Assembly (NCBI GenBank): GCA_029210815.1
Contig: JARGGB010000029.1
Coordinates: forward strand, 1 to 37,562
DNA length: 37,562 bases
Direction: 5' to 3'
Source: Candidatus Brevefilum sp.
Lineage (GTDB): Bacteria; Chloroflexota; Anaerolineae; Anaerolineales; Anaerolineaceae
Both the position numbers and the translations under genes were made by a program. Every line of letters begins with the position of its first letter. Position 1 is the stretch's first letter. Of the stretch, positions 415 through 29,795 are shown piece by piece. The notes beneath the pieces are model-generated. The model ran no database searches. It worked only from the letters and a program-made list of their open reading frames with translations, and was not told where the DNA came from.

Positions 415-462
415 GGCGCTACTCCTCTGTTCTATGTCGGCTTGAACTACCTTCATTTTACA

Positions 463-521
463 GGGAGTAGCTCCCTCGCTATAAGCTGCTGTCCGTCCAC
501 CCGCATAGCGGGCGGTTTTTT
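463..521. other. Hairpins of the IS200-type element end, upstream of tnpA
   Basis: Two stems lie just upstream of tnpA. GGGAG (463-467) pairs with CTCCC (471-475) around a 3-base loop. A longer one pairs 497-504 with 508-515 (8 bp with one G-T wobble, loop ATA) and is followed on the plus strand by six T residues (516-521). In IS200 elements the end hairpin is the TnpA recognition structure, and it also blocks transcription entering from outside. The T run fits the second role. The exact element boundary and target tetranucleotide cannot be fixed from this window alone. Confidence 0.6.
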
Positions 522-564
522 GTTTCGGGCCTTCCGCCCTCAACTTGCTCAAGCATTAAACAGA

Positions 565-593
565 AAAGGGGCTGTCGACGTGACAGCCCCTTT
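565..593 (-). terminator. Strong intrinsic terminator after the first S8 peptidase
   Basis: A perfect 12-bp stem (565-576 with 582-593, loop of 5) sits 19 bases beyond the stop codon of the 2214-aa peptidase. Because the stem starts and ends with A/T runs it could work in both directions, but only the minus-strand gene needs it. Confidence 0.85.
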
Positions 594-611
594 ATGACTA
601 GAGAATAATCT

Positions 612-3600
612 TTAGCGAAGCGTAATAGGCAGATAGATTTTCACAAGAGGATGAACAGTAATGTATACAGTTGCCGTATCATACAACTCAGCACGTGATG
701 GCGTGGAAAGCATGAAATATTCAAAGCTGTCTACACCAAAGAAATTCGTGTCAGGCATATAAGTAAATGATCCGTCCGCATTCAAAACAAGATCACCGTG
801 GACAGGTTCAGTCTTAATATCCACATTAAACTGATCTGTTGGATCAGCATCTGAATCATTTTCCAAAACGCCAGGTGCTTCAACGACCAACTGAACATTC
901 ATATCGGTCTCATAGTAATCATCTACAGCCTGCGGCCCATCATTGACCGGTATTACCTCGATTGTGATGGTAGCTATATTTGAATCATACATACCATCAT
1001 TGACCTGGAAGGTAAAGCTATCTGTACCGTACCAATCCAAATCAGGCGTGTAGACCAAATCCGGTGCTGTACCGCTGAGAGATCCATTTTCAGGCTGAGT
1101 AACAATTGTCCAAACTTGCGGACCAGGTGTGATGTAATCTGCTGTCAGGGTGATATCCAAAGGCGTATCTTCATTCGTTGTGAGACTCTGATCGTCAGCG
1201 ACAGGTTTTGTATTAACAGTGATATAAACCGTTGCTGTATCGACATAATCACCCAATATCTCCGGGGGTAACCCAAGCAAATTATAGGTAAAGCTATCTT
1301 CGCCCAGGAAGTCCTCATCCGGCGTGTAGCTGAAGGACCCATCCTTATTCAAAACAACCAAACCATGTTCAGGTTCATCAAGCAGATCTGCAATAAGGGT
1401 GTCCAGAGGATCATCGTCCGTATCATTTTCAAGCACACCCGGTGCAGGAACAACCAGTTCTGTATTTTCATCCGCCTCATAATAATCATCCGTTGCTTGA
1501 GGTGGATAATTTACAGACGTCACTTCGATGCTTACCGTGGCAATATTGCTGTCCACGACGCCATCGGTCGCCTTGAAGGTAAAGCTGTCCATGCCGTAGT
1601 AATCTTCATCCGGCACATAGGTTAAGACCGGCAGATCACCCTCATCATACTCAAGTGTGCCATGCATCGGCTCATCCACGATCATGTATGTCAACGGGTC
1701 ACCTTCGGGATCCACAGCTTCCAGTGTAATCTCAAGGGGTACGTCCTCAGGTGTCGTCAAAGTCTGATCAAATGCCTCAGGCGCTGGGATAACATGCAGC
1801 GTAACGGGTACTTCCAAAGCAGAGGCAGGTGGGTTGTTTACCTTGAGTGTTGCGTAGTAATCACCCATTTCTAAGCCAGTGGCGTCAAAGTTAACATCCA
1901 CGTCCAGTGTAGAATCGCCATCCACAGTACCAGAAATTGGATCTTCTGATAACCATGGAACATCTCCGCCGAGTTCAACATTCAACGTTATATCGTCGAT
2001 AAAGAAGTTCCCATTTCCTACAGTCACGGAATTGAACTTAACAACATGCGAACTACCATCAGCATAAGCTGAGACATCGACATTAATTTCTCGATAGCCG
2101 AGCACATCACAGGCATCATCAGTGCCATCCGTTCGCCAGAGTTCAACATCATCAATTAAGAGCGCAAGGTAGTTACTGGTACCGCCATCGCCGCATACTG
2201 CCTGTTCAACGAAGAAATTCATATTCGCTTCACCAGGTGGAATCACGACTTCTTGCGAAACATAACCTGTGTCACCAGCCGCTGCACCACCAAACCAGGA
2301 CCATACCAAGCCCGTATTCGGACCAGTGCCTGTGCCTAAACCGCAATCAGCTTCTATACATAGGGGTGTACCATAAGTCGCGGAATATTCATCCCAGTAA
2401 GGATTGGGCGTGTATTCTTCAAAACTTGGATCCAGGATCACCTGTTCAGCCGTTAGTTCAGCTGCAGGACCGGTTGCTGGCATTTCAAAAAGTTCAAAGG
2501 TCGCATCACCAGCACCAGTGTTAACCAGCGAAAGCACCTGTGTTGCAGTCAAATCAGGACCTAACCATTGTTCCATACTTTCAGGATCAACTGTCAAACA
2601 AGGCGCTAACAATCGCAGTTCGACATCTGTAACAAGATCCGAATCCTCAGCCAGTTCCAAATCTTCAACAACCATCGTCTCGTATCCATCAAGTGAGACT
2701 TCGATATCATAGGTTCCGGCAATTATCGACCAGGAATATTCACCATCAGGACCAGAGGTCAGATTTGCAACCAGGGTTCCTGAATCATCATAAATCTCTA
2801 TAGTTGCACCTTCAACTGGCATGGGGTTAAGGTCGCAGGCTTCAAGACCGTAGACAGTTCCCTTCAGAGTCCCCCAGGTAGCCGGACGTGTCAGATGCAA
2901 TGTTACATCAATATTTTCATAAACATAAGGTGTATTGTGCTGGACTAAAAGCTCAGCCAAATAATCACCTGGCTGCTCCAGAGTTGATGGATCGAGCGTC
3001 ACTGTAACCTCTACAGATCCATCTGGATCAACCGTACCGCTGACCGGCTCCTCAGACAGCCAGACCACATCGCCGCCGCCTGCAGACCCCATCCCTCGGA
3101 CCATCCAATTGCCGGGGAAATACGCATCAATCAAAGTCCACTCTTCATCAGGGGGTAATGCAAGATCTGCTGGAGGTGGAGAGTTTGACCACCAACCCGC
3201 CCATGAGCGTTCGTTTGTAGTAGTCTCGTCAATCGCCGCTGGGAAATAAGCAACACCCGGTGTCTCCATAGCAACAACACCAATTAAAACATCACCCGGG
3301 CCGCTCATCAGAACACCCTCAGTAAGCGTGTAATTATTCCAGGAAGACACAGCCTGAACTGTTGTAGGCAAACTCATCAGCAAATTCGAACCCACAGCGG
3401 GATCCGAATTACCTGAAGTGTTTTCGTAAACAGCAATGACAATCTCATCGCCTGCAGTGACTGTGTCATCAAAGTAAATCTGAACATCAGTCAAGGTGAA
3501 TGGGAAAGCACTGGGATCGGGGGTAAAGCGGTTCAGGTAGATAAACTCTGATGTTCCGCCAATGCCAATATTGTTCTCAACGGTGCCGTCGTCTAATATC

Positions 3601-6600
3601 AGCTCAACATCCGCATTAATTACAGCTTGCGGAGAGGTCTCCTTGCCTTTATTGTCTCGGCCTTCAGCAGCCTGTAATCGAACATCCTCTTTAGTAACGA
3701 TTGTCGCACGATTTACTTCAGGCTTATAACCAAACAGAGGCTGATACCCACCATCTTTTTCAAACAACTCAAAATCTGCTGAACCTGAGCCATCATTGCT
3801 GATCGTCAGTGTTTCATCATGCGGCGCATCCTCCATGCCCATCGTCACTTCGAAACTTGTGGGGTCAAAGAGCAGGTAGCCGGTACCCAGGTAGAAATCT
3901 TGCTGAGTCACTGCATTCTGTACCACACTGACCGTTTGAACATCATCAGAATAATTGACCATTGAGGCTGTAAATTCTACATCCTCTGGGTCATCTATTG
4001 TGGGCTGAAATACCCAGTACAAACCTTCGTTTGCAGGGTCGCTGGCATTTTCTATTGTCTGTACTGCAGCGTCAGCGCTGATAACATCTGCGCCAACAAG
4101 AGGCATTAATGAATTGTCATCGTACACAAAGCCAGCGACGACACCACCCGGGATAACAACACAATCCGGGGCAATGACAACAGGTTCAGACACCGTAACA
4201 GCCACATCATCAATATACCAACCTGGATAATTAACTGAACTATCACTACGCATAAAGAAACGGAACTGGAAATCGCTGACAGCATAACTGGAGTCCAATT
4301 GTAATGATTTTGGCGTCCAGGTCATCACGTCACCAAACTTCTCCCAGGCATTATCCCAGGTTGCGCCGCCGTCTTTTGTAACCTCAACCGCACCCCAATC
4401 CCAAGTATTACTCTCGGAGTCCATCCAATGAACAAAGGAAAGCGTGGGTGCTAAACCAGAATAACTGCTCAAATCAATCACTGGTGAAGTCAGGTAGCTT
4501 GCTTCACTATTGTTGTAGTTCCCAGCCAGGTTTGTTGCCCAAACATACGGACCAGAATAAGCTGCTTCTGGACCGGTTGTGGGTACACCCCACTCCCAGG
4601 TGGCATTTACACCAGAAACCGTGAAACCACCATCATCCGTATCAAAATCGGTTGCGAAGACTTCTGTTGGCGCAGGAACGGGGAGCTCAATAATGCCAAC
4701 ATCATCTATGTACCAGCCTTCATATTGGATAGAACTATCACTCTTGAAATAGAAGCGGAACTGGAAATCAGCGACGTTATAAGAGGGATTCAAGGCAACG
4801 GTTTGTTGATTGAAGGCTGTATCACTGACACCGCCAACAGGTCCCCAGACCACATCCCAGGTTGCACCGCTGTCTTTGGTCACATCCAGACGCGCCCAAT
4901 CATAGCTTACGCTCTCAATGTGCTTCCAATCCCACCATTGGATCGCCGGGGTGTCTGTGCCATAACCACTCAAATCAATCGCCGGGGACTCAATCCAACC
5001 CAATTCACTGGCGTTGTAATTCCCTGAGGGGTTCGTCGCCAGGCCTTTAGTGCCGCTGTGGCCTTCTCCAGGACCGTTGGTGAAATCACCCCAGGCAAAA
5101 CTGGTCGTACCGCCGGTTACAAAACCGCCGTCATCCTGCTCAAAATTCCAGAAGAAATCATAATCCGGCTCATACCCGGGTGCACTACATCCGCCAGCAG
5201 GAAGGTAAAGCGTGTAATCCTGTGCAATGGGATCTGAGTCAGGCGTGAATGTTTCAACAAGGGTTTCATAACCCATTGGTACACCAGCTACACTGACGGC
5301 ATATTCCTGCCCAAGATAAAGCTCGACTTCATATTCACCTGTGAATGGATCGGTGTAAAATGTTTCAGAAAAACCTGGCGCAGCAAAGGTCAGGCTGGCA
5401 TATAAAGGATAGCCGTGTGAGACGCCACCTTCAATACCACCATCATAAACAATACCCGAAACGATTGCGGTCGCTAATTCGACAAGGGCAAAGTCTTGTG
5501 TAACTGTCGCTTCCGATTCCACAACAACACCTGTTGCAGTCATTGAGGTGTAACCGAATTTAGTCACGGTAATGTCATAGGTGTCGGCATAAACTGCAGC
5601 GGAATAGGTTCCGGAGGCGTTTGTGTAAACAGTTCGGTTATTGTCGGGGTCCGTGCTGCTGGTGATTTCAACCATAGCACCAGGTAAAGGTTCTAATGTA
5701 AGGCTGTCAGTCACTGTACCTTGCAGGGTGCTGTCACCGCACAATCCTGCCGCGGCTTCAACTGCTGCCAGGGCATCAATTTCACCCCAACCTGAAGCAA
5801 AGTTCGGGAAGTTTGTTGGTGTATCATCCGAACCATCATTATAAACAATATCAACCGCTGTTTCCTCAATCAGGTTTTCAGTGGTGGCATAATCGCCCAC
5901 CAAACATGGTGCTGCCTGCCAGATCAGGGCGACAAGACCCGTAACATGCGGCGCCGCCATTGACGTGCCGCTCCAACCATCCTGGTATTCTGAATCACTG
6001 CCAGGTGTTGAAGAACGAATGCTTGTGCCTGGCGCAATGAATTGGGGCTTCATCGTGCTGAAGCCATCCGTTGGGTTAATTGTGTCAGGGTTATCTGTGG
6101 GTCCCCAGTTAGAGAAAGTGGCATACTGACCGTTATCGGTACCGGATGCACCCACACCGCTAACATTACCAGATCTTGCTGGGTTTCCAACCGTGTTCAA
6201 ACCGGGAGGATTTGAATAGCCGCAGTTACTAGCATTCCCATTTGAAAAGACCGGGTAGGTTCCAACGGCATGCCAGGCATCAATCACATCAGCATACCAG
6301 GGGTCATAGGTTTGTCCACAATCACCCCAAGAGTTGTTGACGACATTAGGCCGCATATCCGGATCAGGGTTTTCACCAGCCAGATCCGTCGGTGCAGCCA
6401 TCCACTGCCCACATCCCAATAAAGCTGCGTCCGGACAGCTGCCGTCAGGACATCCTGCGCAGGCGATCCAATCCGCATCTGGAGCAATACCAATCTGGTT
6501 TGCGCCGCCGTCATCACCGACCATGGTCCCCATGGTGTGGGTACCGTGACCGTTACCATCCCGGGGTTCATCGTCTGTTAAATCTATAGGGTTAAACCAG

Positions 6601-7256
6601 TTATAGTTGTGATCAAAAGTACCCCCATTATTACCGCGATATTCATCAACTAAAGCCTCATGTGTATAACGCACACCCGTGTCAACATTCGCAACAACCA
6701 GACCTTCGCCAGTAATGCCCATCGCCCAAACATCATCGGCATTCACATGAGAAATGTTGGGCTCAATAGCATTAATGCCATAATCCAGCGAAGCTGCACT
6801 TTTATCCGGTTCGTACAGGATATATTCCTTACGGGGACGAATGGCTTCGATCTCCGCAAAACCCAACAAGCCGTTGAGAACATTGATATCTGAGCTTTCA
6901 ACGAGAATGGTGTTCTTAATCCAGAAAGATTGAAACTTAACATCCGCACCACTCAGGTAATTCGCCACATCCGCCTGGGAAGCGCTGGCTGTTTTATTGA
7001 GCTGCTCGTATACAAACCATCCCCGCTCAGACCAATCCATTGAATATGCCGCAGATAAATCAGGCACATCTTTGAAGTCAATCCAGTAACTTGTGGTGCC
7101 TGCTGCCTCAATTTCCTGAAGAACTTGGGGGTCAACCGTTACTGAACCCTGAGGTTCAGAACTTTGCGCTGCGACAGTCAAGGGCGCTGTTGAAGGCAAT
7201 AACAAGCCAAGGATCAACATCACTGCAAAAAACTTAAAATATATTTTTTTGGACAT
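612..7256 (-). CDS. Giant secreted S8 (subtilisin-like) serine peptidase, bacillopeptidase F-like, with multi-domain C-terminus
   Basis: This is an extracellular endopeptidase of 2214 aa. Domains in order: signal peptide (1 to about 30); I9-like inhibitor propeptide (about 50-145); S8 catalytic domain (about 180-505) with D192 (VDTG), H237 (GHGTH), oxyanion N341 and nucleophile S432 (GTSMAAP); a carboxypeptidase-regulatory-like domain (about 511-595); two tandem jelly-roll/MAM-like domains (about 701-857 and 866-1022) that share the pattern NYN-x-SE, SP-x-IDLS, GATWD, FQFRF and GWYIDDV; further CarboxypepD-reg and choice-of-anchor-like segments; and four alternating cadherin/Ig-like modules (1828-2205). 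It ends in K-I-Y-L-P-I-T-L-R. The ATG is preceded at good distance by AGGAG. All catalytic residues are present, so it is expected to be active. Its substrate is unknown. The downstream-facing neighbour is a second subtilase with the same kind of tail. Confidence 0.93.
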   Translation of the reverse strand: MSKKIYFKFFAVMLILGLLLPSTAPLTVAAQSSEPQGSVTVDPQVLQEIEAAGTTSYWIDFKDVPDLSAAYSMDWSERGWFVYEQLNKTASASQADVANYLSGADVKFQSFWIKNTILVESSDINVLNGLLGFAEIEAIRPRKEYILYEPDKSAASLDYGINAIEPNISHVNADDVWAMGITGEGLVVANVDTGVRYTHEALVDEYRGNNGGTFDHNYNWFNPIDLTDDEPRDGNGHGTHTMGTMVGDDGGANQIGIAPDADWIACAGCPDGSCPDAALLGCGQWMAAPTDLAGENPDPDMRPNVVNNSWGDCGQTYDPWYADVIDAWHAVGTYPVFSNGNASNCGYSNPPGLNTVGNPARSGNVSGVGASGTDNGQYATFSNWGPTDNPDTINPTDGFSTMKPQFIAPGTSIRSSTPGSDSEYQDGWSGTSMAAPHVTGLVALIWQAAPCLVGDYATTENLIEETAVDIVYNDGSDDTPTNFPNFASGWGEIDALAAVEAAAGLCGDSTLQGTVTDSLTLEPLPGAMVEITSSTDPDNNRTVYTNASGTYSAAVYADTYDITVTKFGYTSMTATGVVVESEATVTQDFALVELATAIVSGIVYDGGIEGGVSHGYPLYASLTFAAPGFSETFYTDPFTGEYEVELYLGQEYAVSVAGVPMGYETLVETFTPDSDPIAQDYTLYLPAGGCSAPGYEPDYDFFWNFEQDDGGFVTGGTTSFAWGDFTNGPGEGHSGTKGLATNPSGNYNASELGWIESPAIDLSGYGTDTPAIQWWDWKHIESVSYDWARLDVTKDSGATWDVVWGPVGGVSDTAFNQQTVALNPSYNVADFQFRFYFKSDSSIQYEGWYIDDVGIIELPVPAPTEVFATDFDTDDGGFTVSGVNATWEWGVPTTGPEAAYSGPYVWATNLAGNYNNSEASYLTSPVIDLSSYSGLAPTLSFVHWMDSESNTWDWGAVEVTKDGGATWDNAWEKFGDVMTWTPKSLQLDSSYAVSDFQFRFFMRSDSSVNYPGWYIDDVAVTVSEPVVIAPDCVVIPGGVVAGFVYDDNSLMPLVGADVISADAAVQTIENASDPANEGLYWVFQPTIDDPEDVEFTASMVNYSDDVQTVSVVQNAVTQQDFYLGTGYLLFDPTSFEVTMGMEDAPHDETLTISNDGSGSADFELFEKDGGYQPLFGYKPEVNRATIVTKEDVRLQAAEGRDNKGKETSPQAVINADVELILDDGTVENNIGIGGTSEFIYLNRFTPDPSAFPFTLTDVQIYFDDTVTAGDEIVIAVYENTSGNSDPAVGSNLLMSLPTTVQAVSSWNNYTLTEGVLMSGPGDVLIGVVAMETPGVAYFPAAIDETTTNERSWAGWWSNSPPPADLALPPDEEWTLIDAYFPGNWMVRGMGSAGGGDVVWLSEEPVSGTVDPDGSVEVTVTLDPSTLEQPGDYLAELLVQHNTPYVYENIDVTLHLTRPATWGTLKGTVYGLEACDLNPMPVEGATIEIYDDSGTLVANLTSGPDGEYSWSIIAGTYDIEVSLDGYETMVVEDLELAEDSDLVTDVELRLLAPCLTVDPESMEQWLGPDLTATQVLSLVNTGAGDATFELFEMPATGPAAELTAEQVILDPSFEEYTPNPYWDEYSATYGTPLCIEADCGLGTGTGPNTGLVWSWFGGAAAGDTGYVSQEVVIPPGEANMNFFVEQAVCGDGGTSNYLALLIDDVELWRTDGTDDACDVLGYREINVDVSAYADGSSHVVKFNSVTVGNGNFFIDDITLNVELGGDVPWLSEDPISGTVDGDSTLDVDVNFDATGLEMGDYYATLKVNNPPASALEVPVTLHVIPAPEAFDQTLTTPEDVPLEITLEAVDPEGDPLTYMIVDEPMHGTLEYDEGDLPVLTYVPDEDYYGMDSFTFKATDGVVDSNIATVSIEVTSVNYPPQATDDYYEADENTELVVPAPGVLENDTDDDPLDTLIADLLDEPEHGLVVLNKDGSFSYTPDEDFLGEDSFTYNLLGLPPEILGDYVDTATVYITVNTKPVADDQSLTTNEDTPLDITLTADYITPGPQVWTIVTQPENGSLSGTAPDLVYTPDLDWYGTDSFTFQVNDGMYDSNIATITIEVIPVNDGPQAVDDYYETDMNVQLVVEAPGVLENDSDADPTDQFNVDIKTEPVHGDLVLNADGSFTYMPDTNFFGVDSFEYFMLSTPSRAELYDTATVYITVHPLVKIYLPITLR

Positions 7257-7437: not shown

Positions 7438-10400
7438 TTATTTGAGCATCAAAGGCAGATAGATAATCGCCTCAGGATTAACCTTAATAGTCACAGTTGC
7501 CATATCCACCAATTCTTGCTGTCGCTCTGGGGCTGGAATACCCATCATCAGGTAACCGAAGCTGTCCATACCAAAGAAACCAGGATCAGGCATATAAGTA
7601 AAGGAACCATCCGTGTTGAATTCCAGGGTACCATGCTCAGGAAGATGCGTTTCATCCAGGTCTGCGTAAATACCGTCAGTCGGATCAGCATCAAAATCAT
7701 TCTCCAAAACACCCGGTGCAGGTACCTCTAAAAGCACACCATGGTCAGTCTCATAATAATCATCGACAGCCTGAGGTGAATCGTTAATATTTATAACCTC
7801 GATGGTGATAGTCCCAACCTCACTAATAAGATAACCGTCACTTACTGTGAATGTAAAGCTGTCAGGACCATAGTAATCTGGGTCAGGCGTGTAGGTCAGA
7901 TCAGGGGCTGTGCCGCTCAGGGTGCCATGCGCAGGATCGGTTACATCCCAGGTTAAAGTGCCGGGATAAATATCATCCGCTGTTAAGGTGATAGCAAGCG
8001 GTGTTTCCTCAAGTGTCTCAAGGATTTGATCATGAACAATTGGCATGTCGTTGACCATAAACTCAACTGATGTTTGTTCTTCATCCATACCAAAGCCACT
8101 TGCTTCATGGATGGCTGTATTTTCCACAACCGATCCCCAGGTCAAGCCCGCATCCGCAGTCACATCAAAGGTAATTACAACGGGATCCGCACCTGCTTGT
8201 GTGTAATCAAAGCAGACAACGAGTCCAGCCTGAGGATTGAAATCATTATAGGCATAAGAAGTACCATTGACACCTTCATAATCCTCAACACCAACGGAGC
8301 CTTCCATACCCCAGTCGCCAACAACATTATCAAAAGCGACCATGATATCAGGAGACCCAGCAGAGGGATCAGCTTCGTAATAAGCCATGATCTCATAATC
8401 CAATGTCAAGCTGGAATCCCAGTAATCTTCGCTGTCATCAAACTCAATCAACCATCCGGAGCCAAAGGTTGCCAGGCTGACGCCCTTATTAAGCGCTGCA
8501 TCATAGGTAACCCACATATCACGCCACCAACCGGCGATCAAACCGTTCGGGAGCGTTGGGTCGGGGATATCTTGGTTGATATAACTAAACGCTAGATTTT
8601 CTGTCGACATTAAGACATAGCCATCATCAGTGAAAACACCCTGGGTCGTGGTTGGCTTACCGTAAAAATCTGTGCCCGCCATCATAGAAGCGCCGTAGGC
8701 GAAACTATCACCAGAGATACCAGATTGGGTATATATGCCGTAATCTTCCAAATTGACGTAGCCGCCAAATGGTGTATCACAGTTGGGGTCAGTCGTGTTA
8801 TCGCTCACCTGGTAGGTATACTCAATCTTGGGCATCGTACCTTCCCAATGGATAGCATCCTCAACAGGATCATATACTGCAGGAGTTGAAGAACCAACCG
8901 TTTGTAAGGAGCCTTCGACATACGTCACACCAATTGGGAGAACATCGTGAATAACATAATCCAGATCCGCACCTGTTTCATTCGGTGCAACAGTGATCAT
9001 ATAGGTCAGTGTATCCCCAATAACCGCATGGTCGGATGACACTTCTTTTGTTACATCGTCATAAGGTCGGTAAACATTCAACTCGGTTTGGCCAATATTT
9101 CCGGGGTTTTCAGCATCTGAACCCAGGCTGAACCAACCGTACCATGCTGATAAGGGCGCCATCTCAGGAATGTCCCAGATGACCTCAAGGTCAAATTCAG
9201 TTAATGCAGGAACGCTGGTTGGGCCGTTGACCTCAAAATTTGTTGAGGCAGTATCAGGAACCAGGCCGAGTGCTAATGTAATATCATCGGCAACTTCGGC
9301 ATCTCCACCCCAGTTCTGGACTAAAACCCACCAATCATAGGCAATCGGATCCGTCCAACTTAAATATTCTACGGCTGCTGGGGTAGCAGCAGAATCCCAT
9401 AATGTGGCTTCGGAAGGGATTAGGCCGAAACCATAGAACAGGTCCAAATCACTTGCAGAAGTTTCAAGCACTTCCAATACGAGACGCTTGGTGCCCTCTG
9501 GGATCGTGAAGGTTGTATACCAAACATCGTCTAAATTATCAAATGGATCACTATTAGTTGGATCGCCAGGCAGATCAAACTCATAAAGCTCCGCTTCCGT
9601 CAATCCAGCGGTTTCAACCGTCATCTCGGTGATTTCAATGGAGTAAAGATCTTCTAAAACAACACCGCCTGAATCACGATAAACTTCCTTCTTAATCAAG
9701 TCTGGCATATTTCCCGCATCAGGCATGATTGCTAGGGGGAAGCGAGCATTTGTTATTGGCGAACCAAGGCTGCCAGCCGTTAATCCACTTACTGACACAT
9801 CATCAATTTGCCACCACCAATCCCAACCTGGTGCAGTGTAATGGAAACGCAGCAAAACAGAGGCTTCTCCAGCATATGCAGTCAAGTCAACATCTTCAGT
9901 ACGTGGTCCCCGAAAATCAGCTTTTTCATAATGGAAGACGTTCGTCCACGTTGTCCCACCATCAATGCTGACATCGACATAGCCGTCATCTGCGCTTAAA
10001 AAATCATTGAAATCAGATTTAAAGGAAAGGCTGACCGAATCAAACCCTGTCAAGTCTATGGCTGGCGAGATCATCCAGGTATCCATGCCATCACCGCAAT
10101 AATCTGAATTTGCATCAGCGGCTTCACCAGCGCCACCAGTGTTGTTTGTCTCACCTGTTGACTCAGTACTCAACCATGTATCACAAGATTCAGCAGTCGC
10201 ATCAATTGTCCAATCTTCAGGCGGCCATGTTTCAAAATTTTCCGCTAAAATGCTGGTCGCTCCAGAATGAGAATCCTCCGTTGCCAATTCAATCGTAGCA
10301 AACTGCCATGTGCCAATTTCTGCATCTTCAACATTAATATCAAAATCAATGGTTTGTGTTGCACCTGGCGCCAATGTGAATACTGCTGGTGTTGGGGTAA

Positions 10401-12591
10401 TTACCACACCTTCCGGTGCATCAACAACGACAGTGTAATCTGCACTGACGTTTGCAACGCTCTGTACCGTGCGGCTGAAAGAACACGCACCCACACACTG
10501 GCTGTTTTGATAGGACGGGATATTTAATGTCTTAACGTCTCCACCCGCAGAAGGGTCAGCATCCACAAAATTCGTGACCGTTTCATCCATCACCAAGCCT
10601 ATTAATGCGGCTTTGGTTAGGTCGATGCGGCCATTTCCGTCATCAAAAGGATCTGTTGGCGTCACACCATCTTCCTTGACAGTGGTTTCGTCATAAGCGG
10701 ACATCACGATGGCAGATTTGATCTCCATGGGCGTCCAGTCCGGGAACAAATCCATCAACAATAGTGCAGAACCAGCCCCATGCGGGCTTGCCATTGAAGT
10801 ACCGGACATCAAATCGATCTCCGCATCGGTACCCTCACCACCGTAAGGCGGCCCTTCACCAGGCGTGTTATAAGCGGCTAAAACATTCGTCCCTGGTGCT
10901 GAAACTTCAGGTGTCAGGACATCCAACAATTCAAAAGGTCCTCGTGAACTGCCCTGAGCTATGATATCTGCCCAACTGTCTTTCACACCTGCAACCTGTT
11001 CGCTGTCAATGGTTGTTTGAAGTGTTTCCGTCATCAACGCAACAATCGCGTCGCCGTCTTCTTTATCCAGCATCGCAGATGGGAGGGTTGTCCCTTCAAT
11101 GCCACCCATAATAATTGGCGGTCCAGCTGAATTGTTATAAATCAATACGGCTTCTGCGCCGGCAGCTGCCGCATTGTTAATTTTATCTGCAAAAGCACAT
11201 GTGCCACGAGAAATCAATGCAACTGCGCCGACGAAGAAATCAGCTGTGAAAGCGGAACACCCATCCAAATTACCATCATCCCCTGACCACCGGATTGGCG
11301 TGTCCAGCACATCACTTGTGAATGGTACACCCACCCCGGGTAACGCGACCGCTTCATAAAGGGCTGCTTCCTCTGGCTCATGAACTGCAACGGGATAACC
11401 AAAAATCCGCCCGTGGGTGCTGTTTGCAACAATCAGGTTCCAGGCTGGTGCCTTGTAAACTGTACTGGCGTCGGGGCCTGCATTGCCAGCCGAGGTTGAG
11501 GTAAGAATACCCGCATCCACTGCCTCCAGCATTGCCAACTCCACATCATTCTCATAAGGATTGACAGCACCACTTGACGGTCCAATGGAGTAATTTATAA
11601 CATCCACGCCGTCAATTACTGCTTGCTGTACGGCGGCAACTGAACCAGCCGTGGGACAGCCATCTGTATGACACACATCGTAAGCAATAATATTGGCATG
11701 AGGTGCCATACCAGAAATGGTTACCGGCACACCGTTATAATCAAGTTCTAAATAGTTTCCGGCTGCAGTCGATGCTGTATGAGAACCGTGTGCATTATTA
11801 TCCTCACCAAAAACTGTTTCATAACTCTGTGTATATGCATGAACGCCTACCAGCTTATCATTACAAACATAATTTGTAGGGTCAGAATCACACAAACCAA
11901 CATAATTTCCAGACCCGAAGGGGTTTTCGTGATCATACCCATCACCACCAACATCAGCAAAGGAAGGGTGATCCATATTGATGCCTGTATCAAGAACACC
12001 TATTAGCATGCCTTCGCCCTTGGTGTAAAGCTCACCAGGTGTGCTTTCTGTATCCGTCCAAAGCTGGTCGGCACCAATGAACCCTGGGCTTACATCTGTA
12101 TGCGGCTGCCAAATTTCCTCTTTTCGAACAGACCGCACGCCATCCATGGCTGCCAATTTTTGCGCTTCTGCACCTGTCATTTTTGCTGCAAAGCCGTTTA
12201 GTATGACATCGTAGCGAAAATCAATACTTAATTGCCGTCCAAATCGTGATTCCACAGCATTGATAAGCGCATCCTGTTTTTCATGCAAATAATTCAAGTA
12301 TTTGGCACTATCCTGACTTTCGACATCAATCTTCTGTTTTGTAACTGCTGGACTTGTTGCTTTAAACCCCTCAATACCTCCCCTGTATGTCGTGAGAGAT
12401 TTACCATCAAGGAGAATAATATATCGTTCTATTTTCTGAGCATCTCCCTTCTGTTGCAATTCCACGAAACCAGTTTCACTCACTGGTTCGAATATAGGAG
12501 GATCCTCCTCAGTCGTTTGCGCAATTGCTGGTGTAATAGTCATACTCACCAAAAGCACAAGACTAAAAATCTTTAATAACATCCTTTTCAT
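7438..12591 (-). CDS. Large secreted S8 serine peptidase with PA domain (Vpr/lactocepin-like)
   Basis: This is an extracellular subtilase of 1717 aa counted from the ATG at 12591. That start has AGGAG (12600-12604) eight bases upstream and begins directly with a signal peptide (MKRMLLKIFS..., cleavage after about residue 24). An in-frame ATG at 12636 would add 15 unlikely residues. Domains: I9 propeptide (about 45-160); S8 catalytic domain with D201 (LDTGIN), H268 (AHGSH), oxyanion N370 (SAGN) and S599 (GTSMASPHG); a PA domain inserted between His and Ser (about 415-505), as in Vpr and lactocepin; Fn3-like and jelly-roll/MAM-like regions; a DUF11-like region (about 1174-1255); two cadherin/Ig-like modules (from about 1519); and the tail I-I-Y-L-P-L-M-L-K. 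The last modules closely match those of the neighbouring peptidase, pointing to duplication or exchange of C-termini. Confidence 0.93.
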   Translation of the reverse strand: MKRMLLKIFSLVLLVSMTITPAIAQTTEEDPPIFEPVSETGFVELQQKGDAQKIERYIILLDGKSLTTYRGGIEGFKATSPAVTKQKIDVESQDSAKYLNYLHEKQDALINAVESRFGRQLSIDFRYDVILNGFAAKMTGAEAQKLAAMDGVRSVRKEEIWQPHTDVSPGFIGADQLWTDTESTPGELYTKGEGMLIGVLDTGINMDHPSFADVGGDGYDHENPFGSGNYVGLCDSDPTNYVCNDKLVGVHAYTQSYETVFGEDNNAHGSHTASTAAGNYLELDYNGVPVTISGMAPHANIIAYDVCHTDGCPTAGSVAAVQQAVIDGVDVINYSIGPSSGAVNPYENDVELAMLEAVDAGILTSTSAGNAGPDASTVYKAPAWNLIVANSTHGRIFGYPVAVHEPEEAALYEAVALPGVGVPFTSDVLDTPIRWSGDDGNLDGCSAFTADFFVGAVALISRGTCAFADKINNAAAAGAEAVLIYNNSAGPPIIMGGIEGTTLPSAMLDKEDGDAIVALMTETLQTTIDSEQVAGVKDSWADIIAQGSSRGPFELLDVLTPEVSAPGTNVLAAYNTPGEGPPYGGEGTDAEIDLMSGTSMASPHGAGSALLLMDLFPDWTPMEIKSAIVMSAYDETTVKEDGVTPTDPFDDGNGRIDLTKAALIGLVMDETVTNFVDADPSAGGDVKTLNIPSYQNSQCVGACSFSRTVQSVANVSADYTVVVDAPEGVVITPTPAVFTLAPGATQTIDFDINVEDAEIGTWQFATIELATEDSHSGATSILAENFETWPPEDWTIDATAESCDTWLSTESTGETNNTGGAGEAADANSDYCGDGMDTWMISPAIDLTGFDSVSLSFKSDFNDFLSADDGYVDVSIDGGTTWTNVFHYEKADFRGPRTEDVDLTAYAGEASVLLRFHYTAPGWDWWWQIDDVSVSGLTAGSLGSPITNARFPLAIMPDAGNMPDLIKKEVYRDSGGVVLEDLYSIEITEMTVETAGLTEAELYEFDLPGDPTNSDPFDNLDDVWYTTFTIPEGTKRLVLEVLETSASDLDLFYGFGLIPSEATLWDSAATPAAVEYLSWTDPIAYDWWVLVQNWGGDAEVADDITLALGLVPDTASTNFEVNGPTSVPALTEFDLEVIWDIPEMAPLSAWYGWFSLGSDAENPGNIGQTELNVYRPYDDVTKEVSSDHAVIGDTLTYMITVAPNETGADLDYVIHDVLPIGVTYVEGSLQTVGSSTPAVYDPVEDAIHWEGTMPKIEYTYQVSDNTTDPNCDTPFGGYVNLEDYGIYTQSGISGDSFAYGASMMAGTDFYGKPTTTQGVFTDDGYVLMSTENLAFSYINQDIPDPTLPNGLIAGWWRDMWVTYDAALNKGVSLATFGSGWLIEFDDSEDYWDSSLTLDYEIMAYYEADPSAGSPDIMVAFDNVVGDWGMEGSVGVEDYEGVNGTSYAYNDFNPQAGLVVCFDYTQAGADPVVITFDVTADAGLTWGSVVENTAIHEASGFGMDEEQTSVEFMVNDMPIVHDQILETLEETPLAITLTADDIYPGTLTWDVTDPAHGTLSGTAPDLTYTPDPDYYGPDSFTFTVSDGYLISEVGTITIEVININDSPQAVDDYYETDHGVLLEVPAPGVLENDFDADPTDGIYADLDETHLPEHGTLEFNTDGSFTYMPDPGFFGMDSFGYLMMGIPAPERQQELVDMATVTIKVNPEAIIYLPLMLK

Positions 12592-12905
12592 TTTTTTATC
12601 TCCTAAGTAATAATTTGGTATGTGAAAAGATTTCATTAATTATTTTTAATATTAACCTCCTTAAACAACCCATGTGAAATTAGTACGACCTTAATTAAAC
12701 AATTAAAGGCTGCATTGAATGACAATTTTCAAAATCTTTAATATGACTTTGTCCCTCCTTTCACAACTACAAACAAGTTTATCATAAATTTAAAATTTTT
12801 ACGAAATGCATCGCCTAAGGTTTTTATGATCATTTCATTAATCCAGAAGATTTTTTGCAATAATTTTTTGGTTTCATAAAATGATTTTTTTCAATCTATT
12901 AAAGC

Positions 12906-14027: not shown

Positions 14028-14789
14028 ATGGCAAGAACGACACAAATGCAGCAAGAAAGTTTTGAAGATATCGAACGACGGATCGCCATCCTGATCGATG
14101 GTGACAACGCACAGGCTTCACTGATCGAGCAGATCCTGGTAGAAGCCGGCAAATACGGCAGTGCAACCATTCGCAGGGTTTACGGCGATTGGACCACACC
14201 CAACATGAACTCCTGGAAGGATACGCTCAATATTCACGCCTTCCAGCCCATTCAGCAATTCCGATATACCGTCGGGAAAAATGCCACCGACAGCGCCATG
14301 ATCATTGACGCGATGGACATCATGCATTCCCACCAGGTGGACGGCTTTTGCCTGGTATCCAGCGACAGCGATTACACACGCCTGGCAACCCGCATCCGTG
14401 AAAGCGGCATGCTTGTGGTGGGTATTGGTGAGAAGAAAACACCGCGCGCCTTTGTCAGTGCCTGCAATGTTTTTATCTACACTGAAAACATCAAGAGCCG
14501 CAGGGGCACCGCCAGCAGCAGCAAACCTCGTAAGACAAATCACATGAGCCCCCAGGAGAAAGAACTTGTCGAACTGGTCAGCCAGGCGATGGACATGGTC
14601 GGCCCAGATGATGACGGTTGGACCCGGCTTTCGGAGGTAGGCACTGCCTTACGCAGGATTGACCCGGGTTTCGACCCCCGCAGTTACGGCCATCGGCAAT
14701 TATCCCAAATGATAAAAAACCACGGCCGCTGGATTGAAATGCGAAAAGCTGCTAATGGTGCTATCATTGAGATCCGTTTGCGAGATTAA
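14028..14789 (+). CDS. NYN-domain (PIN-like/LabA-DUF88) putative ribonuclease with C-terminal LOTUS/OST-HTH domain
   Basis: The 253-aa cytosolic protein has an N-terminal NYN domain (about 18-155) of the PIN-like nuclease fold. The acidic residues expected around the metal site are D24 and D26 (ILIDGDN), D88 (ATDSAM), D94 and D113/D115 (SSDSDY). Residues about 175-245 form a winged-helix LOTUS/OST-HTH domain (E-L-V-x-L-V start, then L-S-Q-M-I), a domain known to bind RNA or protein partners. A Ser/Lys-rich linker (157-172) joins them. The family is common in bacteria but mostly uncharacterised; RNA cleavage or processing is inferred. Translation probably starts on a leaderless mRNA. A terminator follows, so it is probably monocistronic. 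Confidence 0.88.
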   Translation: MARTTQMQQESFEDIERRIAILIDGDNAQASLIEQILVEAGKYGSATIRRVYGDWTTPNMNSWKDTLNIHAFQPIQQFRYTVGKNATDSAMIIDAMDIMHSHQVDGFCLVSSDSDYTRLATRIRESGMLVVGIGEKKTPRAFVSACNVFIYTENIKSRRGTASSSKPRKTNHMSPQEKELVELVSQAMDMVGPDDDGWTRLSEVGTALRRIDPGFDPRSYGHRQLSQMIKNHGRWIEMRKAANGAIIEIRLRD

Positions 14790-25052: not shown

Positions 25053-26177
25053 CTAATCCCCAAAGAAAGTACCTACATGCCGTGCACCGATAATCCAGGG
25101 ATGATCCAGGGGCACAGGTTTTTCTTTGCCTACCAAATCTTCAAGGGGAACACACACCGTATCACCGTGTTGATAAGCAACCATCACGCCAAATTTTTCC
25201 TCTGCAACCAGGTCAGCAGCGCGTGTGCCAAGGTGCGTTGCAAGCACACGGTCGCGCGCAGAAGGCGCCCCGCCTCGCAACAGATAGCCTAAAATCGTAA
25301 TGCGGCTTTCAATGCCTGTGGTCTCTTCAAGCCGATTGGCGAGCATCAGTGTTTGACCTGTGTACTTTTTCTTCAATTCATCCATACGCTCCTGGCTGAC
25401 CTCCTGCGCCTCGCCATTGTGGACCTTACGATTGATTTTCGCAGAACGTTCAAAAAATGCGACTAATTCAGAGGAATTTGCACCTTCAGCAACAGCGATG
25501 ATGCTGAACATCTTTCCAGCCTGGTTGCGCTCAAGAATTGCTTCAGAGATTTTTTCGATATTGTATGGGATTTCAGGAATAAGGATCACATCCGCACCGG
25601 AAGCGAGCCCAGCGCCAAGCGTCAACCAGCCGACATCACGGCCCATGATCTCCACAATGATGATGCGATGATTGCTGTTCGCTGTGCTGTGCAGTCGATC
25701 AATCGCCTCTGTGGCAGTATCCATTGCAGTGTCAAATCCTATGGTGATATCTGTGAAAGGAACATCATTGTTGGCTGACTTAGGGATGGTCAGAAGGTTC
25801 AAGCCTTCTTGCGTCAGCCGGTTGGCGACTTCCTGGGTTTCACCGCTGCCAATGCAGACCAGGGCATCCAGTTTGTTTTTCTTGTAGACCGCCACTGCAT
25901 CTTTGGTTTTATCAATTTTTTCGCCATCAACAACTATTTGGTGAGGCACATCGCGGCTGGTTCCCAACACTGTGCCGCCAGCAGTCAGGATATTAGATAA
26001 AGCGTCTCCGCCAAGATCAACTGTGCGATCTTCAATCAATCCCCGGAAACCATCTTTAAACCCAATTAATGTCATCCCATGGGTGCTGCGAGCTGCTTTA
26101 CCAAAGGCTCGAATGGTCGCATTCAATCCCGGGCAATCGCTGCCTGCGGTTAAAATACCAACTTTTTTCACCATCAT
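25053..26177 (-). CDS. Phosphofructokinase (PfkA) family protein with altered active site
   Basis: The protein has 374 aa from the ATG at 26177, which sits six bases after AGGAAGG; the ATG at 26183 abuts the ribosome site. The PFK fold is clear: ILTAGSDCPGLNA at the N-terminus, LGTSR, MGR (178-180), AVAEG and LRGGAP. Compared with E. coli PfkA, several key positions differ: the GGDG loop with Asp103 reads GSGE (Gly at that place); the T-I-D127-N-D catalytic motif reads S-A-N136-N-D, so the general base is Asn; Gly11 is Ser; and the F6P-binding His249 is Tyr (GYLLRGG). R72, R162, E222 and D129 equivalents remain. PPi-dependent PFKs also keep the Asp of T-I-D-N-D. It may have another substrate, be very slow, or be regulatory. 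The fold is certain; the activity is doubtful. Confidence 0.9.
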   Translation of the reverse strand: MMVKKVGILTAGSDCPGLNATIRAFGKAARSTHGMTLIGFKDGFRGLIEDRTVDLGGDALSNILTAGGTVLGTSRDVPHQIVVDGEKIDKTKDAVAVYKKNKLDALVCIGSGETQEVANRLTQEGLNLLTIPKSANNDVPFTDITIGFDTAMDTATEAIDRLHSTANSNHRIIIVEIMGRDVGWLTLGAGLASGADVILIPEIPYNIEKISEAILERNQAGKMFSIIAVAEGANSSELVAFFERSAKINRKVHNGEAQEVSQERMDELKKKYTGQTLMLANRLEETTGIESRITILGYLLRGGAPSARDRVLATHLGTRAADLVAEEKFGVMVAYQHGDTVCVPLEDLVGKEKPVPLDHPWIIGARHVGTFFGD

Positions 26178-26327: not shown

Positions 26328-26375
26328 ACCCCAAATCATTCTTTTTTTGAATAGATTTGCCTATTAAATTGGGGT
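26328..26375 (-). terminator. Possible terminator after the ChrA-type transporter
   Basis: ACCCCAA (26328-26334) can pair with TTGGGGT (26369-26375), enclosing a smaller ATTC/GAAT hairpin. The stem touches the stop codon and the loop is long, so this is weak. Confidence 0.25.
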
Positions 26376-27517
26376 CAGCCCCTAAGCCACCCCGTCAGCC
26401 AGCCTACCAGACCCCCAGTCAAGATAAGCCAGATAGAGTCAAGACCGAAACCAAACAGCATGATCAAAGAGAATAAGCTAATAACAACCGTGATTGGATC
26501 CACAAGGGCAGCTCCGATGATTTCCCAGGTGACCCCTGCCCACAAGCCAAGAGAAGCGTAAATGACACCGTCCAGGAATCCGCTGCCCACTTTTGATTCA
26601 CGCAATTTAAATAAAAAGGGATGGGTGACTGCAACAAAAACAAAACCGGGTAAAAACATAGCAAAGGTCGCCAGCAACGCCCCCGGCAGTCCGCCGGTGA
26701 TAAAACCAACAAAGGTTGCAGTCGTTGACAGCGGCCCTGGTGTGACCTGACCAACCGCAATCGCGTCCAGGAGCTGCCCCTGTGTAATCCAACCCAATTT
26801 TTCGACCAGGTCATCCTGGATAAAAGCCAGCAGCACATAACCGCTGCCGTACATCAAGGCACCTGCTTTTACGAAGACCCAAAACAAACGCAAAAAGCTG
26901 AATGGGACTGTAGATGCCATGCTCTCAGACAATAAGAAAGGCATGGGCATTAATCCCCCGAAATGAGACGGCAAATCCTCCTTATTTTTAATAAGGCTCA
27001 ATGCACCCAATACTATCCCACCTCCCACCAGCAAAGGCAGTGGACCAATACCCGACAAATAGGCTGCTAATACAACGATAGAAATTCCCAAGCCTAAAGA
27101 CAATCGCAGCCGGGGTTTCAGCATCCCCCATAAAGCATATATTAAGATGGCAATAACAACAGGCTTTATCCCATAAAGCACACCTTCCAATGAGGGTAAA
27201 GCACCAAATTCCTGATAAACCCAGGCAAATCCCAGGACGATGAACATCGCCGGTAAAATGTAACAAACACCAGCCATCACCAAGCCTGGCCAACCGGCGT
27301 GTTTATAACCTATATGCATGGCAAGTTCCGTCGCATTCGGTCCGGGAATTAAATTAGAGATGCCAATAAAATCGAGAAATTCCTCCTCGCTCAACCATTT
27401 GCGCTTGAGAACAAACTCCTGGCGCATCATGGCAATTGCTGCTGCAGGACCACCAAACGCGGTGAAACCCAATTTAATAAAGGAAACACCAACCTGATAA
27501 AGGCGATTATTCGTCAA
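26375..27517 (-). CDS. chrA: ChrA-family (CHR) chromate-type transporter, two-domain
   Basis: The 380-aa inner-membrane protein has about ten hydrophobic segments in two CHR half-domains. Half one carries T-A-F-G-G-P-A-A-A-I-A-M-M and N-L-I-P-G-P-N-A-T-E; half two carries G-Q-V-T-P-G-P-L-S-T-T-A-T, the paired signatures of the family. Some members export chromate with proton exchange, but many are of unknown substrate. The start is TTG (27515-27517), 13 bases behind the stop of the GPH symporter, and only a weak GCAGG lies before it, so translation may be coupled. With the symporter it likely forms an operon under the divergent TetR regulator. Confidence 0.88.
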   Translation of the reverse strand: MTNNRLYQVGVSFIKLGFTAFGGPAAAIAMMRQEFVLKRKWLSEEEFLDFIGISNLIPGPNATELAMHIGYKHAGWPGLVMAGVCYILPAMFIVLGFAWVYQEFGALPSLEGVLYGIKPVVIAILIYALWGMLKPRLRLSLGLGISIVVLAAYLSGIGPLPLLVGGGIVLGALSLIKNKEDLPSHFGGLMPMPFLLSESMASTVPFSFLRLFWVFVKAGALMYGSGYVLLAFIQDDLVEKLGWITQGQLLDAIAVGQVTPGPLSTTATFVGFITGGLPGALLATFAMFLPGFVFVAVTHPFLFKLRESKVGSGFLDGVIYASLGLWAGVTWEIIGAALVDPITVVISLFSLIMLFGFGLDSIWLILTGGLVGWLTGWLRG

Positions 27518-27530
27518 CTCAAGCCTGCTT

Positions 27531-28940
27531 TCATTCCCCCTCTAATTGCTTCAACTGGGATGCCTTATCAGCATGCATGCTTAAAATTGTTTCCTTCAAC
27601 TTTACTAATCGCTCGCCCTTTAAGGGAAATAAAAGTAGAATCACGGCGCCTATCAGCATTGACAATCCAGGTATTAGCCCGACAATTGTGCGTATACCAA
27701 CAAGGGCTGATCCCGCCTGGTTTAAGAATATTTCGCCGTTATTCATGGCACGGGTGATAAAGCCCGATTGTTCCAGTATGAAGGCAGTCAAAAATAAGGA
27801 CAAAGATTGAGCTGGCTTTGTCAGCAGGGCATTTGCGCCGTAAAAGGCACCCTCACGCCTGGAACCGGTGCGTACCTCATCGTCATCAATCACCTGGGCA
27901 AGCAGGTTGTACGTGATGGTTTGCTGTCCTGAAAGCCCCAAGCCCGCCAGTATCAGTCCCATTGGGATCAATTTCACAGGTAAAAACGTCAGGGAAACCA
28001 GGCCAATTCCACCAATTAACAAATAAATTTGCTGTGCCCGTAGTATCCCAAAGCGTTTAACCATGGGTCTCGCGACCGGGATAGCCAGGCCTAGTGGCGC
28101 AAATAAAAAAATGAGCAAAACTATCGTGCTTGTTTTGGTGACATAGTCCCCCAGGTAAAAAATTGACCCTGTCGCTAATGCCTCCATGAATGTTAATAAA
28201 AAATTCATAGAAACGAATACCCAAAAGGGTTTGCTGGTTAGGGAGTATCTTAAGGATGCCCCTAGCTTGATCGGTTTATCAATAATGGCAAATTCACGCC
28301 GTTCTTTGATTTTATAGGTGGTCAGAAGGATCAAAAACATGGCTGTGATCCCAACAGCGACCATCGAAAGCTGCAATGTCAACAATGAGGTATCCTGGCT
28401 GCCTGATTGCGGTCGGAACAGGTCAGGTAAGAGAAAGCCAAAGACATACCCTATCAAACCGAAAATTGAGGATGAAATGGCAAGTTCATTTCGCTCTAGA
28501 TCCGATTCGGAAAGTTCAGGCATTAATGCACCGTGAACCAGTCCTACAATGGTATAGCATGTGTCGTAAAGCAGCATAGTGATCAACATCCACCAGAACA
28601 AACGTACATCCCCAGCCCCTTGCGGCGCAAACCAAACAAGAATAAAGGTCAAACACAAAAATGGTGCCGTGAAACGCAAATATGGGATTCGTCGCCCAAG
28701 CTTGGAGTGGGTATTATCCGTAATATGGCCAAACAAGGGATCATTGATTGCGTTCCACACTGCATAAATCGCCGAAGCGATGCCAATCCAACGGGCGGAT
28801 AAACCTAAATAATCCTGGTAAAAAATTGGCAGTAATGCTGCAAATACGCTGGAAACAAGCGAAGTTCCAAATGATGCAATACCATAATAAACCTTTGTAT
28901 TTAAGCTCAAGCGATTTTCTACAACCCCGTTTTGTATCAT
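27531..28940 (-). CDS. GPH-type (glycoside-pentoside-hexuronide) MFS symporter
   Basis: The 469-aa membrane protein has about 12 transmembrane segments. The motif W-N-A-I-N-D-P-L-F-G and following D-N-T-H-S-K-L-G-R-R (about 61-84) is the signature of the MelB/GPH branch, in which the Asp residues bind the coupling cation. Family members import sugars, glycosides or uronides with H+ or Na+; some distant members carry other solutes. GAGGA lies before the ATG. The chrA-type gene follows at once and a TetR gene is divergent. A sugar role agrees with the mannosidases nearby, but the TetR and ChrA partners leave an efflux role open. Confidence 0.88.
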   Translation of the reverse strand: MIQNGVVENRLSLNTKVYYGIASFGTSLVSSVFAALLPIFYQDYLGLSARWIGIASAIYAVWNAINDPLFGHITDNTHSKLGRRIPYLRFTAPFLCLTFILVWFAPQGAGDVRLFWWMLITMLLYDTCYTIVGLVHGALMPELSESDLERNELAISSSIFGLIGYVFGFLLPDLFRPQSGSQDTSLLTLQLSMVAVGITAMFLILLTTYKIKERREFAIIDKPIKLGASLRYSLTSKPFWVFVSMNFLLTFMEALATGSIFYLGDYVTKTSTIVLLIFLFAPLGLAIPVARPMVKRFGILRAQQIYLLIGGIGLVSLTFLPVKLIPMGLILAGLGLSGQQTITYNLLAQVIDDDEVRTGSRREGAFYGANALLTKPAQSLSLFLTAFILEQSGFITRAMNNGEIFLNQAGSALVGIRTIVGLIPGLSMLIGAVILLLFPLKGERLVKLKETILSMHADKASQLKQLEGE

Positions 28941-29114
28941 TGATTTTCCTCGCAGTAGAGATCATAAGGTCAGGCTCACCTAATTTTACATGAAAATCAT
29001 TGGAAAAATTGGGTTTGAGAAACATTTCCCCTCTGATGCAAGATGTCGGTTACAATACTTGGATGGAAAATAAACCTTGGAAAAAATCAAAACGAACAAA
29101 GCAGGGAACACACC

Positions 29115-29795
29115 ATGCCTAAAAAGACCTTTTTTAATCTTCCAGATGGAAAAAGAGAAAAAATCCTCGACATTGCCATCACTGAATTTGCTGAAAATTC
29201 TTATACCGCAGCATCTGTGTCAGAAATTGTGCGGAAAGCCAAAATTGCTAAAGGTAGTTTTTACCAGTATTTTGAAAATAAAAAAGAGCTGTATCAATAT
29301 TTGATTGAATATGGTACAGAAGAGCGATTCAACATCCTTAAAAAGCTGCCTGTCCCCCGTAAAGATGCGAGTTTGTTTGATTATCTGCGCTTGCATTTCT
29401 TGTCAGCAGTTTACTTTGAGGTCCACAAGCCCCGCCTTGCTAAAATTGCTTACCGGGCTTTTATTGAAGAAATACCTTTTCCAGAAATGAAAGAGGAATT
29501 ACAGCGCCGAGGGACAACCCAGTTTTTCAAACAATTATTAACACAAGGGCTTGTCCATGGCGACGTTGCCGTGTGGATTGACACCGATATGGCTGCCTAT
29601 GTTTTAGAAGTGATCTATTATCAACTCGGCAAATATTTTATTAATCGGCTGAAGCTGACTAAAAACAACTTCAATTATCAGGAAATTAATGAGGACGAAG
29701 AAATCCGGCAATTGCTGAGCAACTTAATGGACATCATCGAGGCTGGTTTGAAGCGCAATCCCGATCAAAGTGAAAAGTTCCTGGCAGCAAAATAG
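29115..29795 (+). CDS. TetR/AcrR-family transcriptional regulator
   Basis: The 226-aa protein starts at the ATG at 29115 (AGGGAA about seven bases before); the frame is open back to 29043, but that part lacks homology. The N-terminal helix-turn-helix (about 10-60) has the pattern T-A-A-S-V-S-E-I-V-R-K-A and K-G-S-F-Y-Q-Y-F-E-N-K-K-E-L, the clear TetR signature. The remaining helical domain would bind an unknown ligand. It is divergent from the GPH-symporter/chrA pair across 174 bases, the usual layout for a local repressor. No operator palindrome is obvious in that gap. Confidence 0.92.
   Translation: MPKKTFFNLPDGKREKILDIAITEFAENSYTAASVSEIVRKAKIAKGSFYQYFENKKELYQYLIEYGTEERFNILKKLPVPRKDASLFDYLRLHFLSAVYFEVHKPRLAKIAYRAFIEEIPFPEMKEELQRRGTTQFFKQLLTQGLVHGDVAVWIDTDMAAYVLEVIYYQLGKYFINRLKLTKNNFNYQEINEDEEIRQLLSNLMDIIEAGLKRNPDQSEKFLAAK

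Follow-up and report, generated by a model that had tools for sequence, protein, structure and literature searches.

The phosphofructokinase-like gene and its surroundings

The window, by which we mean the whole stretch of 37,562 nucleotides analyzed here from a Candidatus Brevefilum sp. contig, holds the gene of a phosphofructokinase (PFK) homolog (Table 1). Its frame is intact, with 374 codons followed by a stop, and an in-frame ATG two codons upstream offers an alternative start, with which the gene would reach up to 26183. The protein belongs to the phosphofructokinase superfamily by its Pfam PFK score (PF00365; 300 bits, gathering cut-off 30.9) and to the NCBIfam subfamily PRK03202 (NF002872; 353.4 against a curated cut-off of 253), a family name that by itself is no proof of activity; its score for PFK_mixed (TIGR02483), 349.3, falls below the curated cut-off of 430.55. 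The AlphaFold model of the 374-amino-acid protein (mean pLDDT, 91.8) superimposes on E. coli PfkA (1pfk_A) with a Z score of 41.3 and an rmsd of 1.6 Å over 319 residues, which establishes the two-domain PFK fold that the initial annotation had read from the letters alone. Residue numbers are those of E. coli PfkA (reference NC_000913.3) unless stated otherwise.

Table 1. Features of the PFK-like gene, with their positions in the window
Feature	Position	Strand	Basis
PFK-fold protein, 374 amino acids, probable pseudo-phosphofructokinase	25053..26177	minus	Translation, Pfam, model superposition
First nucleotide loop G7-I-L-T-A-G-S13-D-C-P-G17, with Ser at the Gly11 position	26127..26159	minus	Alignment; coordinates computed from residue numbers
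Degenerate phosphoryl-donor loop C108-I-G-S-G112-E113-T-Q-E116 (E. coli: I-G-G-D103-G104-S)	25830..25856	minus	Alignment; coordinates computed from residue numbers
Degenerate catalytic loop P132-K-S-A-N136-N-D138 (long PFKs: P-K-T-I-D127-N-D129), Asn in place of the general base	25764..25784	minus	Alignment; coordinates computed from residue numbers
Phe241, opposite a gap in E. coli PfkA and part of model helix 236-252	25455..25457	minus	Model, alignment, column counts

Beside the PFK-like gene lie sugar symporter-like and chromate-transporter-like genes (27531-28940 and 26375-27517, both on the minus strand), and a TetR-like gene on the plus strand (29043-29795) points away from all three. 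A TetR-type regulator gene, assigned from weak NCBIfam matches, is found at most six genes away at 22 of the 32 loci that make up the window's branch (genera g1, g54, and g15), in varying orientation. The order PFK followed by two genes that are presumably YgiQ-like and THUMP-like recurs in other genera. No neighbor was common to the whole clade of close relatives described below in the flanks examined, which were often ended by contig ends, and gene order thus points to no partner. Neither promoter-like sites (3, against a shuffle mean of 7.4) nor terminator-like sites (4, against 5.4) were in excess. Elsewhere in the window, two adjoining minus-strand genes (612-7256 and 7438-12636) encode giant subtilase-family proteins of 2,214 and 1,732 amino acids with Ig-like and cadherin-like repeats, and a plus-strand gene (14028-14789) fuses an NYN nuclease domain to a LOTUS (OST-HTH) domain.

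The assembly to which the window belongs (2.66 Mb, 96% complete) carries three PFK genes. The question of a second, canonical PFK, raised in the initial annotation, is thereby answered with two copies that are more conventional, a class assigned by residues and not by assay. The copy at L001 encodes 322 amino acids with GGNGS and STIDND motifs and is of the short, more conventional ATP type; that at L003 encodes 396 amino acids with GGDDT and KTMDND, the signature of PPi-dependent enzymes. Given these two genes, glycolysis need not rely on the window copy. The L001 gene itself (72-1040, minus strand) keeps Asp127 and has Asn in place of Asp103, a replacement shared by the further copies of its type examined in the genus.

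Replaced and retained active-site residues

In alignment with E. coli PfkA, the general base Asp127 corresponds to Asn136, the donor-loop residues Gly102-Asp103-Gly104 correspond to Ser111-Gly112-Glu113 (G-G-D-G becoming G-S-G-E), Gly11 corresponds to Ser13, and His249 corresponds to Tyr298, all as first read; further replacements are Thr125 by Ser134 and Ile126 by Ala135. Asp127 is the general base of PFK (PMC12203962), which is required with ATP or PPi alike (PMC10339645). The protein lacks both this base and the GGDG loop with Gly104 that characterize ATP-dependent 6-phosphofructokinases (EC 2.7.1.11), and with G-S-G-E and P-K-S-A-N-N-D it has neither the two Asp residues of GGDD nor the base Asp of PKTIDxD that mark PPi-dependent phosphofructokinases (EC 2.7.1.90). 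The loss of conserved catalytic residues that defines a pseudoenzyme is seen at Asp127, Gly104, Asp103, Gly11, and Thr125. All four residues that bind the fructose 6-phosphate (F6P) phosphate in EC 2.7.1.11 enzymes are present (R162, R243, R252, and E222), and so are Arg72, Arg171, Met169, and Asp129 (as D138). Translation and alignment therefore bear out the earlier statement that the frame has a proper start and stop and that the phosphate-binding Arg residues are retained.

The replacements differ in weight. The change of His249 to Tyr, initially listed with the other losses, is real but not diagnostic, since Tyr is common at this position in the sister clade described below, which keeps Asp127 (21 of 32 proteins). 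Loss of Asp103 alone is no proof of inactivity either, because many relatives with Asp127 have Gly or Asn at position 103. A misaligned catalytic loop was ruled out by the phmmer alignment with Geobacillus PFK, which contains zero gaps near the active-site loops; the register of the loop is that of this ungapped sequence alignment and is not drawn from the structural superposition. A sequencing error as the source of Asn was ruled out as well, as a protein with 97% identity, encoded in an assembly under a separate name (JAENYZ010000002.1), has the same S-A-N-N-D. Between the window gene and the 97% identical copy in genome G012, dS is 0.42.

The eroded clade and its sister clade

In a PFK family tree, proposed at the outset as a check, the window protein is not isolated: it falls into a clade of 62 proteins (SH-aLRT, 97), each from a different genome, that spans 14 genera of one Anaerolineaceae-like family and has Asn at position 127 in only two members. 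We refer to this group as the eroded clade. Its sister clade comprises 32 long PFKs with G-G-G-G-T (SH-aLRT, 84; both clades jointly, 99), 27 of them from the same family and the remainder from, among others, Mobiluncus and a Nitrospirae MAG. These proteins are 51 to 57% identical to the window protein, similar in length, and invariant at the same effector columns; unlike it, they keep Gly11, Gly104, Asp127, and Asp129 in 32 of 32 cases, with Ser at position 125 in three and Arg at position 128 in four. The tree covers 111 proteins, namely, 110 of 158 distinct homologs plus E. coli PfkA; rows shorter than 300 amino acids or with more than five X (e.g., L218 and L033) were omitted, as were those below 50% identity except for 16 chosen ones. 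Family matches of at least 50% identity outside the analyzed set are G120:C46, G130:C222, G113:C75, G131:C330, and G140:C25. A second tree, built without the active-site columns, left the clade of 62 intact (SH-aLRT, 96). Both trees are quick searches with SH-aLRT support and without bootstrap, and L003 was excluded from the second tree and from the 48 conventional rows used for comparison.

Gly104 is kept in none of the 62 members, a loss that maps to a single change on the second tree, and Glu or Asp takes its place in 45. Asp103 is missing in 61 of 62 and also in all 32 sister-clade proteins, so that it was lost earlier than Gly104; the letters at position 103 require at least 23 changes on the tree. 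Position 127 is occupied by Asp in 36 members, Glu in 13, Val in 5, Thr in 3, Ser in 2, Asn in 2, and His in 1 (within the window's genus, Asp in 5, Val in 5, Asn in 2, and His in 1), and by Asp in all 48 more conventional relatives. The Asp127 state changes at least eight times on either tree, a count that cannot separate loss from regain. Gly11 is kept in 14 members, Thr125 in 10, and Asp129 in 53, and Lys stands at position 124 in 45. The eroded type was not seen in other families: among 78 class-level matches outside the family, the 20 proteins read all keep Asp127, as do the two other-family matches of an order-level search (L154 and L163).

Conservation is distributed unevenly over the pockets. 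With site lists for ATP, F6P, and effector that we take, apart from Asp127, Arg162, and Glu187, to reflect the E. coli structure, columns at least 98% conserved in the eroded clade amount to 0 of 13 in the ATP pocket, 2 of 9 in the own-subunit (cis) F6P site, 7 of 13 in the effector site, and 68 of 309 overall; the corresponding numbers in the sister clade are 7 of 13, 7 of 9, 7 of 13, and 114 of 309. Column P values were 0.010 for the effector site and 0.037 for the ATP pocket, with columns treated as independent. Among 85 columns conserved in the conventional rows, 8 of 14 active-site columns were lost in the clade (less than 80% kept), compared to 1 of 5 effector columns and 12 of 66 others (Fisher P = 0.005 for active-site versus other columns).

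Eight of the 13 effector positions are practically invariant in the eroded clade (R21, S58, H154, G185, D187, F215, and K/R213 in 62 of 62 and K25 in 61), and five vary (54, 55, 59, 211, and 214). Their equal conservation in the sister clade marks a retained site and not a new role. Since the window protein has the E. coli residue at only four effector positions (R21, S58, G185, and K213), its predicted effector set is that of the long-type relatives. The F6P-phosphate residues are likewise well kept (R252 in 62, R162 in 61, E222 in 57, and R243 in 50 members), and other sugar-site residues are looser (M169 in 31 and R171 in 28). In bacterial PFK, both the F6P and the effector pockets sit at subunit interfaces (PMC12203962). 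The E187D exchange in E. coli PfkA, which introduces the residue type found here, kept GDP activation and abolished sensitivity to PEP, and in a PPi-dependent PFK with Asp at this position ADP and PEP have hardly any effect (PMC10339645). One column has become fixed: Phe241 (window numbering) is found in 62 of 62 proteins of the eroded clade, whereas no residue exceeds 8 of 32 at this column in the sister clade, and this stretch may form a new contact surface.

Selection on the gene as a whole is strong. In the window's genus, dN/dS was 0.037 to 0.081 in six computable pairs (one more was not computable), including pairs in which both copies lack Asp127. The rest of the clade had a median of 0.060 and a maximum of 0.098 (32 pairs), and the sister clade had a median of 0.058 and a maximum of 0.132 (12 pairs), all from pairs with dS below 2, several of them near saturation. 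With values this close to those of the sister clade, the whole protein appears about as constrained as an ordinary relative, the loosening being local. The gene is present in 14 of 16 genus genomes (in one as a fragment) and in all eight that are at least 90% complete. It is thus retained under selection, as a pseudoenzyme should be, and the earlier statement that it is not decaying stands. Slow decay, with the gene on its way to a pseudogene once the enzymatic role was gone, would account for the variability of once conserved active-site columns relative to other conserved columns; yet the selection result already disfavors it, the homologous frames listed are free of internal stops, the gene is kept in every near-complete genus genome, and the Phe241 column has gained full conservation, so that we consider this reading very improbable.

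Candidate functions of the protein

Could the protein still be an active enzyme with an altered donor or substrate, either PPi-type or specific for another sugar phosphate? In that case, ATP would be shut out by the acidic residue at position 104, as in PPi-dependent PFKs, PPi would be bound by Lys124, and the role of the base would fall to Asp129 or another group. Acidic residues at position 104 and Lys124, each in 45 of 62 clade members and both present in the window protein, are reminiscent of the GGDD/PKTIDxD signature of PPi-dependent PFKs (PMC12203962), the F6P-phosphate residues are retained, and Asp127 persists in 36 members. Unlike the PPi-dependent enzymes, however, the window protein is without Asp103 and the base Asp127 and has Glu instead of Asp at position 104; the first Asp of GGDD is absent in 61 of 62; N, V, H, T, or S at the base position, with four residues within one genus, is hard to square with chemistry there; and the genome already has a PPi-type PFK with GGDD/PKTMDND. 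We consider an altered enzyme unlikely. The clade as a whole may nevertheless not be inactive: judging from Asp127 in 36, Asp129 in 53, and a Glu in 13 that could act as base, some members may be enzymes. For the window's own protein, with Asn at the base and Gly at position 103, activity of this kind is less likely.

A different possibility, and a narrower form of the explanation that we prefer, is that the protein serves as a regulatory subunit in mixed tetramers with the L001 ATP-PFK, donating Arg162 and Arg243 in trans along with its effector site, as in the heteromeric yeast PFKs. These trans-acting residues are present in 61 and 50 of 62 members, respectively, and an L001-type PFK accompanies the eroded copy in 54 of 62 genomes (at E 1e-90) and in 8 of 8 genus genomes that are at least 90% complete and hold the window gene. 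Of the eight genomes without an L001-type PFK at this threshold, seven are less than 90% complete; however, in the eighth, G036 (92%), two other PFK homologs accompany the eroded copy. The window protein and L001 are also only about 33% identical and differ in length (374 versus 322 amino acids), and their genes lie far apart, about 600 kb on one contig in G009. Mixed tetramers therefore seem somewhat unlikely.

We favor, with moderate confidence, the more general reading that the gene encodes a stand-alone bacterial pseudo-phosphofructokinase acting as a metabolite sensor or partner regulator. At the level of sequence, the donor side is eroded, the base has changed repeatedly, overall purifying selection is unchanged, the effector columns are mostly invariant, and the sugar-phosphate Arg residues are retained; a sensor or regulatory subunit switched by GDP- or PEP-like ligands would be the simplest reading of this pattern. 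Of the three readings offered in the initial annotation, the regulatory pseudoenzyme is favored because the base is variously replaced, Gly104 is absent in 62 of 62, and the ATP pocket is eroded, while the effector columns are largely unchanged and purifying selection is strong. A new kinase specificity is disfavored because the phosphoryl-donor side is what eroded, and weak or altered activity may persist given the Asp127 (36 of 62) and Glu (13 of 62) still found in the clade.

A plausible course of events would start in the Anaerolineaceae-like family with a long-type PFK copy, already without Asp103, from whose ATP-phosphate pocket Gly104 disappeared. The general base would then have come under weaker constraint, with Asp127 replaced in several lineages and by Asn in the window's species. 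Useful phosphorylation of F6P is unlikely when the base is missing and an acidic side chain occupies the position taken by the ATP alpha-phosphate in other PFKs, the place for which an Asp is described in PPi enzymes (PMC12203962), and fructose 1,6-bisphosphate would no longer be made at a useful rate. The effector site would accommodate some metabolite, for which a nucleoside diphosphate with Mg is a candidate, and the old F6P pocket would bind a sugar phosphate. A PFK-like rearrangement of subunits could report the ligand state, either in a homo-oligomeric sensor or in a regulatory subunit, and contact with a partner might be made partly through the newly conserved stretch around Phe241. That these proteins form a bacterial family of PFK-derived sensors or regulators, in which a single loss of the ATP-phosphate pocket was followed by repeated losses of the base, both the effector and the sugar-phosphate pocket persisted, and an invariant Phe marks an added partner surface, is a proposal that we make tentatively.

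The putative pseudo-phosphofructokinase shares with bacterial PfkA (E. coli and Geobacillus) the whole fold, the Arg residues for the F6P phosphate, and the aligned position of the effector site; it differs in the replaced general base, ATP-phosphate loop, and Gly11 and, relative to E. coli PfkA, in an additional stretch of about 40 residues that separates Glu222 from Arg243 as well as in most effector residues. In its proposed mechanism, the protein is similar to the C-terminal half of eukaryotic PFK, which is catalytically dead: after duplication this half lost catalysis and the ATP pocket, and its F6P pocket became an effector site (PMC12203962). As in human PFKL, PFKP, and PFKM, the ATP pocket is degraded and the sugar-phosphate pocket kept, with loss of catalysis predicted here; the human C-terminal half reads I-S-N-N in the phmmer alignment, with Ser in place of the base, and our model superimposes on human PFKP 408-762 with a Z score of 38.0. 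Unlike the eukaryotic half, the window gene is separate, unfused to a catalytic half, and part of a distinct bacterial clade, and its regulatory role is predicted.

Among the papers listed in a literature search, with most subscription journals outside it, no title or start of an abstract dealt with a stand-alone bacterial pseudo-PFK; the main text of PMC12203962 contains neither "inactive" nor "chloroflex," and "phosphofructokinase" is absent from PMC10211241. PFK is a textbook allosteric enzyme, and its eukaryotic form became regulated through a duplication in which one copy was disabled; the bacterial proteins, if correctly interpreted, would have repeated independently the process that gave eukaryotic PFK its allosteric half. 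Clade members seem to stand at successive stages, with Gly104 gone in all 62 and Asp127 still present in 36 but not in the other 26, and would allow a stepwise test of this transition. They also carry a warning for annotation: since a curated model names the window protein an ATP-dependent 6-phosphofructokinase above its cut-off, genomes with several "ATP-dependent PFKs" may carry nonenzymes.

A two-domain PFK of 766 amino acids, laid out like the eukaryotic tandem PFK, is encoded in a Mobiluncus mulieris genome reached via L038 (L226:163-2463, minus strand). In its second half, the donor loop is degenerate (GGYNA), and ASIDNN also occurs there.
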